Virus record (IMG/VR): IMGVR_UViG_3300005436_000005
Coordinates: 1-43,833 of that record
Source of the DNA: a virus
Length of the DNA stretch: 43,833 nucleotides
Strand: one strand, 5' to 3'
The position numbers were made by a program, and so were the translations under genes. Positions 81-43,833 of the stretch are shown here, one piece after another. The notes under the pieces were generated by a model. That model made no database searches and had not been told where the DNA came from. It saw only the letters and a list, made by a program, of their open reading frames with translations. Every line of letters starts with the position of its first letter. The stretch's first letter is position 1.

Positions 81-601
81 CAATTTATGAAGGCAGGCTA
101 AAACCTTTTGATAAAATAATAGGTGGTGTTTGTTGTGACTATATTGGTGCGTTTGGAGTGAATAAATACATTGAAAGCAATGTTTATATAACAGCAAAAC
201 ACCTATTCCAATTACCAAATTGTGAGTTTAACAGAGCCGGCTGGCATAGCGATGGATTTTTAACAGATGATATAAATTACATTTGGTGTGATAATACTCC
301 AACTACTTTTAATAGTAGCAAATTCACGCTATCCAACGACCATAATAAATCTATGTTAGAAATGAATGTTCAGGCATTACCGACTAATAACGTTAAATAT
401 TCACCTAATGAATTATTAAGGCTTAATCAATATAATATACATAAAGTAACCTCAATAACAGAACCTGGCATGAGAACATTTTTAAAGGTGTCTTTTAGTT
501 TAGAAAAGTATAACCTTATTGGCAATTCTCACAATTATCTTTTAGATTATAAGTGGGATATGAAACCTCGTAGTGTTGAGCGTAACCATCCTGTTAAATA
601 G
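1..601 (+). CDS. Probable 2-oxoglutarate/Fe(II) dioxygenase-like protein (3' part; gene crosses the join)
   Basis: The full gene begins at 43728 and gives a 208-residue protein after the 80-base overlap is removed; position 1 is the third base of codon 9. Full-length numbering shows an HxD pair in GWHSDGF (H91, D93), a distal H156 in YNIHKV and R167 eleven residues later in GMRTFLKVSFS. This is the spacing expected of the 2OG-Fe(II) oxygenase double-stranded beta-helix: two His and one Asp bind iron and the Arg binds the 2OG carboxylate. A segment reading IWCDNTPTTF lies where the sheet core would be. The start overlaps the DUF7352 gene by ATGA, so the two are cotranslated. The substrate is unknown; protein, nucleobase or small-molecule hydroxylation are all possible. 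The family is inferred from motif order only, and no Sec signal or membrane segment is present. An ATG at 32 is an internal methionine, not the start. Confidence 0.7.
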   Translation, partial: LGIYECAIEEMFFYQYLPIKLSGGMSPIYEGRLKPFDKIIGGVCCDYIGAFGVNKYIESNVYITAKHLFQLPNCEFNRAGWHSDGFLTDDINYIWCDNTPTTFNSSKFTLSNDHNKSMLEMNVQALPTNNVKYSPNELLRLNQYNIHKVTSITEPGMRTFLKVSFSLEKYNLIGNSHNYLLDYKWDMKPRSVERNHPVK

Positions 602-637
602 CCCTGTTTAGCACTCCGCTTGCAGGGCTTTATTTTT
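600..637. terminator. Bidirectional intrinsic terminator
   Basis: AGCCCTG (600-606) pairs perfectly with CAGGGCT (623-629) around a 16-base loop, followed by TTATTTTTT on the plus strand. It sits between the converging dioxygenase gene and the membrane-protein genes, where it could stop transcripts from both sides. Confidence 0.85.
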
Positions 638-6253: not shown

Positions 6254-6820
6254 ATGAAGAAAATTAGCACACTATTTAAAAAAGACCCGAGCGATTTAGG
6301 GCGGGTAATTAACGAGATTAACCCTGAAAATAAATGGGCTTTAAGTACTGGTATAGCCACTAGAAAGTACGACGGTACAGCTTGCGCCGTAATAAATGGC
6401 GAATTATACAAACGGTACGACGTAAAGCGAGGCAAAACTGTTCCCAATGGCGCTATCCCATGCCAAGCCCCTGATGAAATAACAGGACATTGGCCGCACT
6501 GGGTAAAATGCGACTCGTCTAATAAAGCCGACAAATGGCATATAGAGGCGTTTGGAAATGAATACCAGAATATTGTTTTTGGCGACGGCACTTATGAACT
6601 TATAGGCGAAAAGATACAAGGCAACCCAGAAAAAATTGGGGGACACGTATTAGTTGAACATGGTAAAGATATTTTAAATCTACCCGACAGGTCATTCGAC
6701 GGCATTAAAGAATATTTAACTAATAACGATATTGAAGGCATAGTTTTTCATGCTAATGATTTGTCAGGTCGTATGTGCAAAATAAGAAAATCTGATTTCG
6801 GTATAAAAAGAAATAACTAA
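6254..6820 (+). CDS. RNA ligase-like nucleotidyltransferase (DUF5565/RNA ligase 1 type)
   Basis: A 188-residue protein with the covalent nucleotidyltransferase signature. The motif I lysine is K38 in RKYDGT, a motif III-like stretch YELIGEK spans residues 114-120, motif IV is EGIVF at 161-165 and motif V is CKIRK at 175-179. This set matches the phage DUF5565 family of compact RNA ligases, which form a ligase-AMP intermediate and seal 5'-phosphate to 3'-OH ends. It is shorter than T4 Rnl1/Rnl2 and has no obvious extra domain. The likely role is RNA repair, for example of host tRNAs cut by an antiviral nuclease; no kinase/phosphatase partner is seen. First gene of a plus-strand operon, directly after a strong promoter match. 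Confidence 0.8.
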   Translation: MKKISTLFKKDPSDLGRVINEINPENKWALSTGIATRKYDGTACAVINGELYKRYDVKRGKTVPNGAIPCQAPDEITGHWPHWVKCDSSNKADKWHIEAFGNEYQNIVFGDGTYELIGEKIQGNPEKIGGHVLVEHGKDILNLPDRSFDGIKEYLTNNDIEGIVFHANDLSGRMCKIRKSDFGIKRNN

Positions 6821-10545: not shown

Positions 10546-11719
10546 CGCCTGCGCCTTGTGTGTTATTTATAGCAAAACTTTCTTCATTAATGGGGGTAAT
10601 ATCGCAATCTGCTTCAATCCCCATAACTGATAATATAGTACTAAAAGCCCGTTGCATATCAATTCTATCCCGCTCTGTACGGTTATTATATGCCTTTATT
10701 GCTTCAGGTAACTGATTTTGATTGTACCTTCCCTCTGTTAAGTCACTGTGCAAAATAGCATTTTGACCCAATAGACGGTAAATTGTTGAGCGAACTTTAG
10801 TGTCAGTGTAAGCAAATTTCTTGTCGTCAAGCTTGTTCTCAATGGTTTTAAATTCGGGTGCGCTTTCTACGCTGTCCACGTTAGCAACCATTAATTGCGG
10901 CCCGTCCGTACCAACAAATGATCTTGCACGTGCTAAAAACTCATCCTCTTCTAATTGACTTTGCTTTTCGCCTTTTTCTATCCAAAGAACCTTATCACTA
11001 AAGTTATTCTTAATGTTTGATTTAGTTGTCTTGTAGCTTAATATCTCCGCTTCTATGGCATCAATGGCTGCATCTAAGGTATGTAGTGGGTATTTCTTGT
11101 AGGTGCGACCAAACGCAGCTATTTGCCCATTATACGACTTCCACCCACCAGCAGCAGAGACTTGTCTTTTAATCTCAACCGGATCGGGATTAAATATATC
11201 TATAAAATCTGGTTTGTCTGCGGCTTTGTTAAGAGATCCAAAACGGTTGCGTGTCCACCACTTATCATAAACGCCTATTTTACCTTCCTCTTCGTTAATG
11301 CCATACCTGCAATATTCAAATGGCACAATACGCAATTCGACACCAGAGAATAAAGCGTTGTAATTCAAGTGGAAATAAAACTTTCTCCAGTTAGAATAAT
11401 ATTCGCTTGCAATTGCAAGCAAGTCATCGCCCGTTTGACCATCAGAATTAAATACAGTATTCCAAACGCCATCTTCTTTATCTTTACCTTTTTTTGTCTT
11501 CCCGTCACTAACAGCAAAGCCTTGGCCGAATATGAAGTCAGCAAACAATTGTGTTGCCATCTTAGCCGTTGGTGATGCATCTACTAGCGTTTCCATCCTT
11601 TGCGGATAACCATTATCAATATCATATGAGGCCACGTTAAAACGGCCTATATCGACTGGCTGTATCCGCAAAGGCGCGGAAGGTAAATTATCGGATGAAT
11701 AGAAAAGGCGTGTGGCCAT
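10520..11719 (-). CDS. Portal protein
   Basis: A 399-residue protein with features of a phage portal. The N-terminal region carries repeated Trp/Tyr motifs in a clip-like segment (YYSNWRKFYFHLNYN). The long acidic and basic helices of the C-terminal half include a stem-like helix (FKTIENKLDDKKFAYTDTK) and a final conserved-style segment (AYNNRTERDRIDMQRAFSTIL). It would form the dodecameric DNA entry ring. Its start overlaps the preceding stop (TAATG). It is shorter than most HK97-type portals (400-500). Its place after capsid and tail-tube genes, rather than next to terminase, is unusual. Confidence 0.7.
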   Translation of the reverse strand: MATRLFYSSDNLPSAPLRIQPVDIGRFNVASYDIDNGYPQRMETLVDASPTAKMATQLFADFIFGQGFAVSDGKTKKGKDKEDGVWNTVFNSDGQTGDDLLAIASEYYSNWRKFYFHLNYNALFSGVELRIVPFEYCRYGINEEEGKIGVYDKWWTRNRFGSLNKAADKPDFIDIFNPDPVEIKRQVSAAGGWKSYNGQIAAFGRTYKKYPLHTLDAAIDAIEAEILSYKTTKSNIKNNFSDKVLWIEKGEKQSQLEEDEFLARARSFVGTDGPQLMVANVDSVESAPEFKTIENKLDDKKFAYTDTKVRSTIYRLLGQNAILHSDLTEGRYNQNQLPEAIKAYNNRTERDRIDMQRAFSTILSVMGIEADCDITPINEESFAINNTQGAGDGSNIINN

Positions 11720-12198
11720 TATTCAGATTTAGCAGGATCAATTACTGTTTCAGCAGGTACTTCGATTACGTTCTCTTCAGAATCTACATCGGATTCGCTT
11801 CCTTTGCTTTTGCCGCCTTTTTTGCCTTTAGGCTTTTCCTCTTCCAATTCATCAAAGCTGCCATTGAACAAGTTTGCGTTTTCCTTGCTTGCATTTACCA
11901 TAGCAATTGCCACGTCATCAGTAAGATTTTTGTTGGTATAGTGATTATGTTCAAATAACACAAGAGCGTCGTTATCCTTGAAGGTGTACTTTTGATTTTT
12001 CATAATGTTTATTTTTTCTTTTGTTAAGTTAGTCAACTCTGTATATGCCCTTATCCTGCAAGAGTAGCAATCACGCTTCATTGTTGCGCCTAAAGCCTCC
12101 CAATATAGGGTCTTAAGCTCATCTATTGCGCTTTGTTCTCCCTTGCTGATTGCGTATTGCAATTTAGCTAAATTTTGTATTCTTTCGTATAAATCCAT
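11719..12198 (-). CDS. Structural-operon protein with acidic/basic low-complexity tail
   Basis: A 159-residue protein. The N-terminal 75 residues are helical and contain CYSC; residues 75-115 form a mixed domain. The tail alternates acidic and Lys/Gly-rich blocks (EEEKPKGKKGGKSKG) and then an acidic end. It lies between the probable tail tube and the portal, directly after a terminator. A head-tail connector or completion role is possible, but no family is recognised. Confidence 0.65.
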   Translation of the reverse strand: MDLYERIQNLAKLQYAISKGEQSAIDELKTLYWEALGATMKRDCYSCRIRAYTELTNLTKEKINIMKNQKYTFKDNDALVLFEHNHYTNKNLTDDVAIAMVNASKENANLFNGSFDELEEEKPKGKKGGKSKGSESDVDSEENVIEVPAETVIDPAKSE

Positions 12199-12201
12199 AA
12201 T

Positions 12202-12229
12202 AAAAAAGGACGGGCATATTTACCCGCCC
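12202..12229 (-). terminator. Intrinsic terminator downstream of the capsid/tail-tube genes
   Basis: Read on the minus strand, GGGCGGG (12229-12223) pairs with CCCGTCC (12214-12208) with one G-U pair around an eight-base loop, followed by TTTTTT (12207-12202). It lies between the tail-tube-like gene and the gene upstream of portal, so it should lower transcription of the portal genes relative to the major virion proteins. Confidence 0.85.
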
Positions 12230-12256
12230 TCTAAGGATGATTATGAAAAACTAAAC

Positions 12257-12841
12257 CTAAGCAGCGACTGTGAATAAAGCGTCGAACGCAGCCTTTTTAA
12301 CAGCGTATGACGAAGCGGTTGCACCAAAGGTATAAGGAACCTTAGGCTCATTCATATCTTCGTCATTAGTAAATGTACCGCCTACTGTACCTTCATTAGC
12401 CGCTAAGTCACGTGCTAAGTCTGGCATTCTTAAGCCATTTGTACCACCGTAAACCTCAAACACTACGCCTGTTTTCTTAACGTTCTCTACAATGAAGACA
12501 CTATAGCTTTCTGTTAAAGCAGGTATTTGCAATTTGAAATCGTCATCGTAAGTCGGGAATACAGCAGCAATTGAATGCTTGTAGTAAGAACCGAAATCCG
12601 TGTCCTGAGTTTCAAATTTTGGTTTGAAGTTACGTTTGTAAGTTTCAAAACGAAATGCTTTGTCACCATCAGCAAGTGTGATTCCAGTAATGATGTTAGG
12701 GTTGGCTACGTCAAAAACTTTCGTAGCCCTATTCCAAACTTCTACAGGCAAAACTGCCATTACATTCTCCGCACCGCCTACTGGCTTGTCATCGCAATTC
12801 CTTAGTATATCGTCGGTGATCTCACCGCATGATGTTGCCAT
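12257..12841 (-). CDS. Probable major tail tube protein
   Basis: A 194-residue protein. It follows the major capsid gene closely (21 bases) and precedes a strong terminator, the setting of a protein needed in high copy number. It begins ATSCGEITDDILRNC, with two cysteines, followed by long beta strands (FRFETYKRNFKPKFETQDTDFGSYYKHSI), as in tail tube folds. A head decoration protein is the main alternative; no catalytic motif is seen. Confidence 0.5.
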   Translation of the reverse strand: MATSCGEITDDILRNCDDKPVGGAENVMAVLPVEVWNRATKVFDVANPNIITGITLADGDKAFRFETYKRNFKPKFETQDTDFGSYYKHSIAAVFPTYDDDFKLQIPALTESYSVFIVENVKKTGVVFEVYGGTNGLRMPDLARDLAANEGTVGGTFTNDEDMNEPKVPYTFGATASSYAVKKAAFDALFTVAA

Positions 12842-36901: not shown

Positions 36902-37102
36902 ATGAAAACATATACACCCGCCTTAATCCTCCAAAACGGAAAAGAGGTGTCTTTTAGTTATAAAGGCCTTAAAGTATCTGGTATTGTTGGTAGTACAGAT
37001 AATTCAGGATTCAGGTTACGTTTAACTACGGATTACATTTGTAAAAATGAAGAATGGTACGTGGGAGATTTAAAATATTTTCAATATAATTTAATAGACT
37101 AA
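36902..37102 (+). CDS. Small beta-rich protein, unknown
   Basis: A 66-residue protein from the ATG (ALILQNGKEVSFSYKGLKVSGIVG), all strand-like. It overlaps the start of the methyltransferase-like gene by one base. Unknown. Confidence 0.65.
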   Translation: MKTYTPALILQNGKEVSFSYKGLKVSGIVGSTDNSGFRLRLTTDYICKNEEWYVGDLKYFQYNLID

Positions 37103-37848
37103 TGAAAACATATGGTGTACTAATAGATCTATTTGACCACAGCGGACATGTTGCGGAACCTTATAAACGTAATAACTGGCATGTGTTACAGGTTGACATC
37201 AAAAACGGTATTGATATTTTAGAATGGGATTACAAAGGGTCTATTTTTGATTGGATGTCTACATGCCGTTATAGCGAACCAAATTGCGAATTTGTTTTTG
37301 GCATATTGGCAGCTATACCATGCACACACTATGCATTAAGCGGTGCGGCTCATTTCGCTGAAAAGGACGCGGACGGGAGGACTGAAGAAATGAATAAACT
37401 TTGTGATAAAACTAAAGAAATAATTGATTGGGTTCATAGCCGTTTTAATTTACTATTCTGGAAAGTTGAAAATCCAATGAGTAGAATACATAAATTAAAT
37501 ACGTGGTTAGGTAAAGTTCAGTTTAAGTTTAACCCTTGTGATTTTGCAGGGTACAAAATACTTGAATCTACGAAAGAGTGTCAGTATCTTCTATCTTTAG
37601 GTGATAAAAAAATGATAGATGTGCCTAAATCTGATTTAAAGAAAATAACTGAATTCGGCTTATACAATAAACAAACCTGGCTTTGGGGCAAATTTAATAA
37701 GCCTAATAGGCAATATATTCCGCCAGTTTGGAAAGATAGCCCTATGCATGTTCTTTACGGCGGTAAATCTGAACGCACAAAAGAGTTAAGAAGTGTAGAT
37801 CCAAAAGGATTTGCAGAAGCGTTTTACCAATCTAATAATATAGAATAA
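37102..37848 (+). CDS. C5-cytosine methyltransferase-like protein without target-recognition domain
   Basis: A 248-residue protein. Motif I-like LIDLFDHSGHVAEPYKR (8-22) is degenerate relative to DLFxGxGG; AIPCTHYALSG (71-81) carries the PC dipeptide of C5-methyltransferases with C74 as candidate nucleophile; KVENPMSR (121-128) is the ENV-like stretch. It is much shorter than typical DNA C5-methyltransferases and lacks an evident TRD. It may modify DNA bases with a partner protein, or act on a nucleotide. The reading rests on motif order. Confidence 0.65.
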   Translation: MKTYGVLIDLFDHSGHVAEPYKRNNWHVLQVDIKNGIDILEWDYKGSIFDWMSTCRYSEPNCEFVFGILAAIPCTHYALSGAAHFAEKDADGRTEEMNKLCDKTKEIIDWVHSRFNLLFWKVENPMSRIHKLNTWLGKVQFKFNPCDFAGYKILESTKECQYLLSLGDKKMIDVPKSDLKKITEFGLYNKQTWLWGKFNKPNRQYIPPVWKDSPMHVLYGGKSERTKELRSVDPKGFAEAFYQSNNIE

Positions 37849-43279: not shown

Positions 43280-43300
43280 ATTATAAAGTTAAAATAAAAT

Positions 43301-43330
43301 TTGCAAGAAACAAAACTATGTATAACTTAG
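43301..43330 (+). promoter_or_regulatory. Promoter for the DUF7352-dioxygenase operon leader
   Basis: TTG (43301-43303), 19 bases, TAACTTAG (43323-43330), one mismatch from TAnnTTTG. Transcription would begin near 43334-43337, only a few bases before the kissing-loop element. A minus-strand TAGTTTTG at 43318-43311 overlaps it and may serve the lysis operon, but has no -33 TTG at the right distance. Confidence 0.5.
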
Positions 43331-43343
43331 GAAAGTATTAAAC

Positions 43344-43426
43344 GCACCGTGCAGGGTGTAACCAAAAATATTAACGAGCCTTCGTCGGCGGGGATAGACT
43401 GCACTCTTGAACCGCTAACGAGGGCT
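43344..43426 (+). ncRNA. Candidate kissing-loop leader RNA
   Basis: Hairpin 1: GCACC (43344-43348) pairs with GGTGT (43355-43359), with loop GTGCAG. Hairpin 2: 43377-43391 pairs with 43412-43426 over 15 positions with one C-A mismatch and two G-U pairs; the 20-base loop contains CTGCAC (43399-43404). The two loops are perfectly complementary over six bases, and loop 1 is wholly made of that sequence. Hairpin 2 ends eight bases before the start codon of the DUF7352 gene, and a U-containing stretch (TTTATCTTT) follows. It probably controls translation or early termination of the operon. The structure is read by hand, not folded by program. Confidence 0.65.
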
Positions 43427-43434
43427 TTATCTTT

Positions 43435-43731
43435 ATGAAAAAGATATTTAAATATCCCATGCCAGTTCAGGAAAAAATACAACTTGAATTGCCCGTTGGG
43501 GCTAATATTATTAGGGTTTCTGATATTGAGGGCTTATTTTATTTATGGGCTATTGTTGATCCTGAACAAATGGAAACCGAAACCCGTTACATAGAATTTT
43601 ATAAAACTGGTCAGCCTATTGATGGCGAAGACGAGTTAATATACTTAGGTCTATGCCGTCTATTCATTATGCAAGAATTGGGTTTATACACTTTCGAGCG
43701 AGTAACAAAACAAGCACCTTACACAACATGA
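43435..43731 (+). CDS. DUF7352 family protein
   Basis: A 98-residue protein of a compact family widespread in phages (KIFKYPMPVQEKIQLELPVGANIIRV, then FYLWAIVDPE, then EDELIYLGLCRLF). Predicted beta-sandwich; family function is unknown. It overlaps the dioxygenase gene by ATGA, so both come from one message led by the structured RNA. It may act with the dioxygenase. Confidence 0.8.
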   Translation: MKKIFKYPMPVQEKIQLELPVGANIIRVSDIEGLFYLWAIVDPEQMETETRYIEFYKTGQPIDGEDELIYLGLCRLFIMQELGLYTFERVTKQAPYTT

Positions 43732-43833
43732 TATACGGGGAGCTACCAACTTCGTTAGGCATTTATGAATGCGCTATTGAAGAAATGTTTTTTTATCAAT
43801 ATTTACCAATAAAGTTAAGTGGAGGCATGAGTC
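43728..43833 (+). CDS. Probable 2-oxoglutarate/Fe(II) dioxygenase-like protein (5' start; continues at position 1)
   Basis: This is the true beginning of the gene described at the left end. The ATG overlaps the DUF7352 stop. The first residues are MIYGELPTSLGIYECAIEE, then the frame enters the 80-base repeat and is in register with the downstream part. Confidence 0.8.
   Translation, partial: MIYGELPTSLGIYECAIEEMFFYQYLPIKLSGGMS
43754..43833. repeat. Terminal direct repeat (circular join), right copy
   Basis: Identical to positions 1-80; see the left copy. Confidence 0.93.

Follow-up and report, generated by a model that had tools for sequence, protein, structure and literature searches.

Sequence comparison indicates that the leader at positions 43344–43426 of the window and its relatives are one undescribed RNA in phages of Bacteroidota, in which the loop of a 5′ hairpin (P1) is complementary to the apical loop of a second, terminator-like hairpin (P2). 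The window is the whole stretch of DNA analyzed (43,833 nucleotides; positions 1–43,833 of the IMG/VR record IMGVR_UViG_3300005436_000005). The relatives, which comprise dozens of uncultured phage records and two named isolates, show strong covariation, and the view that the kissing-loop leader RNA is real and lies at the 5′ end of a transcript is supported. Its probable role is that of a switch of transcription termination. Little has been written on structured leader RNAs of Bacteroidota phages; the present family is strongly supported by comparison, offers a tertiary contact open to loop-swap tests, and has members in cultured phages.

The features of the leader and of the operon behind it, the genes of which are referred to as cargo genes hereafter, are listed in Table 1. 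Because positions 1–80 are an exact 80-base repeat of 43754–43833, the window genome is circularly closed or permuted, and the cargo operon spans the joint.

Table 1. Positions of the leader RNA, its flanking signals, and the cargo operon in the window
Feature	Position	Strand	Basis or remark
−33 element TTTG, Bacteroidota-type promoter (predicted)	43300..43303	+	consensus match, 19-nt spacer
−7 element TAACTTAG (predicted)	43323..43330	+	consensus TAnnTTTG, 5/6
P1 5′ arm GCACC	43344..43348	+	fold; covariation (helix 1: both-side changes in 4/4 aligned pairs)
P1 loop GUGCAG, kissing helix 5′ half	43349..43354	+	fold; kissing paired in 22/22 sequences
P1 3′ arm GGUGU	43355..43359	+	fold, covariation
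Linker, A-rich, 16 nt	43360..43375	+	15–19 nt in relatives
P2 lower stem 5′ arm	about 43376..43391	+	fold; covariation (helix 3: both-side changes in 13/15 pairs)
Internal loop 5′ side GGAU	43392..43395	+	fold; conserved in one subtype only, also part of search pattern
P2 apical stem 5′ arm AGA	43396..43398	+	fold, covariation (helix 4)
P2 apical loop CUGCAC, kissing helix 3′ half	43399..43404	+	fold, covariation
P2 apical stem 3′ arm UCU	43405..43407	+	fold, covariation
Internal loop 3′ side UGAA	43408..43411	+	fold, alignment
P2 lower stem 3′ arm	about 43412..43427	+	fold, covariation
T-rich tail TTATCTTT of terminator-like P2	43427..43434	+	weak in window, strong in most relatives
DUF7352 gene (PF24043), first cargo gene	43435..43731	+	E 1.8e-17
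Second cargo gene start, PHROG 1843	43728..43833, continuing 1–601 over circular joint	+	no Pfam match
Intrinsic terminator ending cargo operon	600..637	+	d score +5.4

An earlier sequence-only reading had described two hairpins whose loops pair perfectly over six bases, and both the coordinates and the pairing were reproduced in the fold. It had taken the loop of P1 (a 5-bp hairpin) to be exactly these six bases; this proved true of the P2 loop as well, so that the arrangement is neater than had been stated. The second helix, read as 15 positions with a single mismatch, is indeed composed of 9 bp, a C.A mismatch (43386/43417), and 5 bp, which are followed within P2 (43377–43426) by a 4 × 4 internal loop and a 3-bp apical stem. 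The leader folds at −32.9 kcal/mol (z −4.3; none of 200 shuffles equaled it), and none of the other leaders in the window, 70 in all, is as structured (z −4.2, as against a median of 0.03). Six-base loop complementarities occur at chance frequency on the + strand of the window (7, as against 3–14 per shuffle); the pair in question is the strongest on either strand, and it was equaled or exceeded by 2 of approximately 85 shuffled pairs (12 shuffles). Since the complementarity is thus only weakly unusual within the window, the case for the leader RNA rests on its relatives.

The search for relatives required a structure-aware approach, because BLAST fails on these leaders: the window leader against named phages and 50 related records gave nothing useful, and the leaders of three relatives were without match. 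DUF7352 as an anchor brought in at least 40 further loci of this gene, where the leaders that were read proved unrelated; DUF5675 as an anchor yielded distant loci only, and a first loop pattern, GATAGAC-N6-TCTTGAAC, gave 28 chance matches. The pattern CGGGGAT-N12-TGAACCG (the internal loop with its closing stems) retrieved three true homologs among about 120 stretches of IMG/VR, and a two-sequence covariance model together with a second pattern provided about 26 copies beyond the window. When the covariance model was rebuilt on 15 sequences, 28 of 46 records proved to carry copies, most of the records having been chosen for that reason; of 50 other phage records, which no pattern had preselected, 6 did so. 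Ten named Bacteroidota phages were scanned as well, with matches in Flavobacterium phage 11b (E 5e-8), in Croceibacter phage P2559S (E 1.3e-9), and, weakly, in Fpv5, where the match was a plain terminator lacking P1. Most records contain one copy, and two contain two. A sequence-free descriptor, which asks that the P1 loop be able to pair with the apical loop of a hairpin preceding a T-run, gave 49 matches (redundant loci, mostly known members) as against one in the shuffle; on a second set it gave 8, the shuffles averaging 0.2. A looser version was too noisy (51 matches as against 34 in shuffles). In the Bacteroidota chromosomes, the core pattern was found in none of 395 genomes and the model matched none of 198, which, as a positive control was lacking, is weak evidence of absence.

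In Flavobacterium phage 11b (NC_006356.2, 33637–33732; L453), the unannotated family member lies directly before PHG11b_62 with an exact TATATTTG upstream. In P2559S (NC_018276.1, 33955; L452 1056), the annotated TTG start of gp48 falls within P2, and an in-frame ATG just past the T-run is the likelier start; the RNA thus corrects a gene annotation. The descriptor also picked out a divergent candidate missed by the model (L100, about 2190–2300, + strand), where a 5′ hairpin and a terminator hairpin with a 7-base kissing pair, GTAGCAG/CTGCTAC, follow a TATTTTTG motif.

The alignment contains 22 distinct members (14 in the first set), some of which were gathered by patterns in which parts of the core are fixed. 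In all 22, the P1 loop is fully complementary to the P2 apical loop, each of the six positions of the kissing helix being paired; four of the six show double changes. Overall, 24 of the 28 pairs co-vary by changes on both sides, and standard pairs occupy 95.4% of the pair cells, as compared with 65.4% in shuffled alignments and at most 49% when the partners were slid by 1–3 columns. The test named in the sequence-only reading, a covariance model built from DUF7352 leaders, would have failed; one built from the RNA itself was successful. Ten different loop pairs occur among the members. For some of the set, CTGCNC was prescribed by the search patterns, but the 5′ loop was left free throughout, and a covariance model from which the kissing pairs were omitted still yields kissing members with new sequences. 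Pairs unrelated to the patterns among the model-found members are AAGCAG/CTGCTT, AGGCAG/CTGCCT, GTTCAG/CTGAAC, and GTGGAG/CTCCAC, and further ones are GTGGTAG/CTACCAC, GTTACGG/CCGTAAC, and GTTGCGG/CCGCAAC. The internal loop GGAU/UGAA is constant in one subtype, a constancy partly imposed by the search pattern; UAGUAG/CGAAA or other internal loops are seen in the remaining subtypes.

The members share a layout consisting of a TAnnTTTG promoter-like site, P1, an A-rich linker, P2 kissing P1, a T-run, and usually an AUG soon after. The candidate promoter previously placed ahead of the first hairpin corresponds to a promoter-like TTTG-N19-TAACTTAG at 43300–43330, and the −7 consensus of Bacteroidota is TAnnTTTG (PMC7366714). 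An exact TATATTTG is present in relatives at the equivalent place; the −7 motif matches the consensus at 6/6 positions in 12 of 18 members, mostly a few bases 5′ of P1, and it is exact in both named phages. In 14 members parsed by hand, the P2 lower stem is 10–16 bp and the linker 15–19 nt. The window AUG (43435) is located eight bases past P2, as had been read, and in 15 of 18 members an AUG on the same strand occurs 5–14 bases past P2, a distance that leaves no space for another promoter; in two divergent members (L369 and L370), several tens of bases separate the terminator from the gene start. In the ten positions ahead of the AUG (−10 to −1), T makes up a mean fraction of 0.78 in 17 members, as compared with 0.29 in 1235 further genes from these phages; a fraction of at least 0.6 is reached by all 17 members and by 5.8% of the further genes. 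The terminator d score is positive in about half of the members, with stem ends set automatically, and is −6 to −27 for the window tail, so the T-run of the window is on the weak side. No conserved antiterminator helix competing with P2 was found in the alignment of members.

Plain terminators packed before an AUG and lacking P1 are also present in the phages studied. One of them lies in the window itself (about 12200–12260, − strand), directly before the ATG of the − strand gene 11719–12198, and a terminator directly precedes the start codon in 11 of 1670 ORFs of the phage loci scanned, as against none in mid-gene controls. An exact TTTG-N19-TACATTTG promoter-like site was also observed upstream of an RNA ligase 1 family gene (RLIG1, PF17720; window 6254–6820, + strand). 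In another locus (L383, about 2240–2390, + strand), which is possibly a different leader type, a stretch near the promoter (CGCAGAACAATTT) is complementary over 13 bases to the loop region of a terminator-like hairpin.

The sequence-only reading had tied the RNA to a DUF7352-dioxygenase operon. This tie was not supported: the RNA is absent from the other DUF7352 leaders read, and homologous leaders precede at least ten unrelated gene families. The second gene, there called a dioxygenase, belongs to PHROG 1843 and has no Pfam match. According to the Pfam annotation, the genes directly 3′ of the leaders include HNH_3/NUMOD4 endonucleases, Lin1244_N, DUF1376, HTH_36, DUF6291, DnaG-type primase proteins, YopX, DUF7352, and several unknowns. 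Since these downstream genes are unrelated, the link to DUF7352 is incidental. In a relative of the window phage (G470), a leader with 84% identity occupies the equivalent place between equivalent − strand genes, and the operon behind it consists of a homolog of window gene 37102–37848 and another gene in place of DUF7352 and its partner; the leader thus stays while the cargo is exchanged. Replication genes and homing-type endonucleases follow several of the leaders, and the RNA may therefore control when or how strongly early phage genes are expressed in Bacteroidota. The assignment of the hosts to Bacteroidota rests on the promoter type, a BT4734-like primase gene, the kinship of the terminase to those of Flavobacterium phages, and the two named phages.

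Computation shows the fold, the kissing helix, the constant arrangement of promoter-like motif, T-run, and AUG, and the exchange of cargo; from these we infer termination activity, repression, and an effect of kissing on termination efficiency. We have moderate confidence that the leader is a cis-acting 5′ terminator-type RNA of Bacteroidota phages, which would limit read-through and block ribosome loading. Points that count against this reading are the weak tail of the window copy, the d score above zero in only about half of the members, the distant gene starts in L369 and L370, the usual single copy per phage, and the plain terminators lacking P1. Transcription would begin at P1 or slightly ahead of it. 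The first parts to emerge would be P1, the linker, and the apical portion of P2, and the P1 loop would then kiss the P2 apical loop. The complete P2 with the T-run would form an intrinsic terminator directly before the start codon, and a read-through transcript in which P2 is folded would be a poor substrate for ribosome loading, because P2 ends 5–14 bases before the AUG. The module would keep the expression of the following gene low or conditional, acting as a plug-in promoter and leader for exchangeable cargo (replication initiators, HNH endonucleases, and accessory genes). Since conserved antiterminator pairing is lacking, a classical two-state attenuator is not evident, and a switch would act through the loop–loop contact, a protein, or RNA polymerase itself. 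The T-tail of the window copy is weak, and translational blocking may therefore weigh more there. A stronger version, which we put forward tentatively and regard as somewhat doubtful, is that the contact between P1 and the terminator hairpin loop sets termination without a ligand, leader peptide, or antiterminator helix, and that phages reuse the cassette for unrelated genes across Bacteroidota; if true, this would be a new regulatory principle, with a control cassette portable between unrelated genes.

The RNA might instead be a trans-acting phage small RNA of about 90–100 nt, with a promoter, a compact kissing fold, and a terminator, the downstream gene being merely the next one. Its own promoter-like site and terminator-like 3′ end, the usual single copy per phage, the conservation of the leader under changing cargo, and the distance to the next gene in L369 and L370 would suit such a molecule. 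We nevertheless regard it as rather unlikely, since the close same-strand AUG in 15 of 18 members precedes unrelated genes and leaves no space for a separate promoter, and since the loop sequences drift with compensation and are therefore not kept for an outside target.

Another explanation is a nascent antiterminator like the putRNA of phage HK022, in which the 5′ RNA would bind RNA polymerase, as a putRNA-like molecule at the zinc-binding domain of the beta′ subunit, so that pauses and terminators, its own P2 tail included, are ignored. PutRNA is a two-hairpin nascent phage RNA of about 70 nt that acts on RNA polymerase and suppresses termination; it has a V-shaped fold with a triplex, and putL lies just 3′ of an early promoter (PMC9378689). 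The leader resembles it in its position just past an early-type promoter, its size (about 70–90 nt), and its two hairpins, but all members scored retain a T-run, and loop kissing has not been reported for putRNA (PMC9378689), which makes this explanation unlikely. The location before early or replication genes also agrees with it; as compared by description, the two-hairpin nascent RNA is common to both, whereas kissing and a T-run terminator of its own belong to the leader. To our knowledge, putRNA has no T-run terminator of its own.

A riboswitch, in which a small molecule binding at the kissing or internal-loop region controls P2, is quite improbable. The compact pseudoknotted fold coupled to a terminator-like stem and the constancy of GGAU/UGAA in one subtype would be compatible with it, but this constancy derives partly from the search pattern, other subtypes differ, and the downstream genes have no common metabolic theme, so that neither a conserved ligand core nor functionally related genes characterize the family. 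Of the earlier suggestion that the RNA senses a ligand or acts as an attenuator, only the attenuator-like layout, with a T-run after P2 in all members scored, is supported. Chance hairpins or a coding artefact, for which one could cite the chance frequency of six-base loop complementarities in the window and the frame open across the leader (GTG 43349 to TGA 43438), are refuted by the 24 of 28 co-varying pairs and by stem insertions and deletions that would shift any frame.

The leader RNA was also compared with known systems. As the sequence-only reading had supposed, no described class matches: Rfam 15 gave no family at the gathering cut-off in the window, the window leader, L230, and L223 gave chance-level sub-threshold matches only, and L449, L450, L433, and L437 gave none at E ≤ 1. 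A tRNA scan of the window was negative, and a tRNA-like reading was dropped. No description of the leader RNA was found in the literature, subscription journals and preprints being outside the search. Pistol, twister, and other ribozymes were considered too, and there was no Rfam match. Small hairpins with complementary loops are known from the guanidine-II riboswitch and the ColE1 RNAI/RNAII kissing complexes; the leader resembles these, but it has no Rfam match, and its kissing is intramolecular, between a 5′ hairpin and a terminator-like hairpin. With transcription attenuators and riboswitches it shares a structured 5′ leader and a terminator-like hairpin before the first codon, but it has no evident antiterminator pairing, ligand, or leader peptide, and control seems tied to the loop–loop contact with the terminator.

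For the endonuclease cases, the nearest functional relatives are the inhibitory hairpins at the translation starts of I-TevI, mobE, segB, and gene e in T4-like phages, where a stable stem in a phage leader likewise abuts the start codon, in several cases that of a homing endonuclease (PMC3014915). The T4 hairpin sequesters the start region in early transcripts, hides a Shine-Dalgarno site, and is bypassed by a late promoter inside it, whereas in the leader family the promoter-like site of the members precedes the whole structure; the family adds a T-run after the stem and a second hairpin kissing the stem loop. Bacteroidota are largely without Shine-Dalgarno initiation (PMC7366714).

Other structures were seen in front of DUF7352 genes. 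One of them, from another phage group, is a tRNA-like element whose D arm is enlarged (RF00005, 34 bits); it directly precedes the gene (L040, 1209–1302; L042; L043, 4582–4674), and its extra stem co-varies from GCAG/CTGC to TCGG/CCGA. Two further loci (L145 and L148, about 2890–2985) carry a near-identical 85-nt leader, which has no Rfam match and can fold as an H-type pseudoknot, AAAAGCTG/CAGCTTTT with CCACGTCTGCC/GGCAGGTGTGG.
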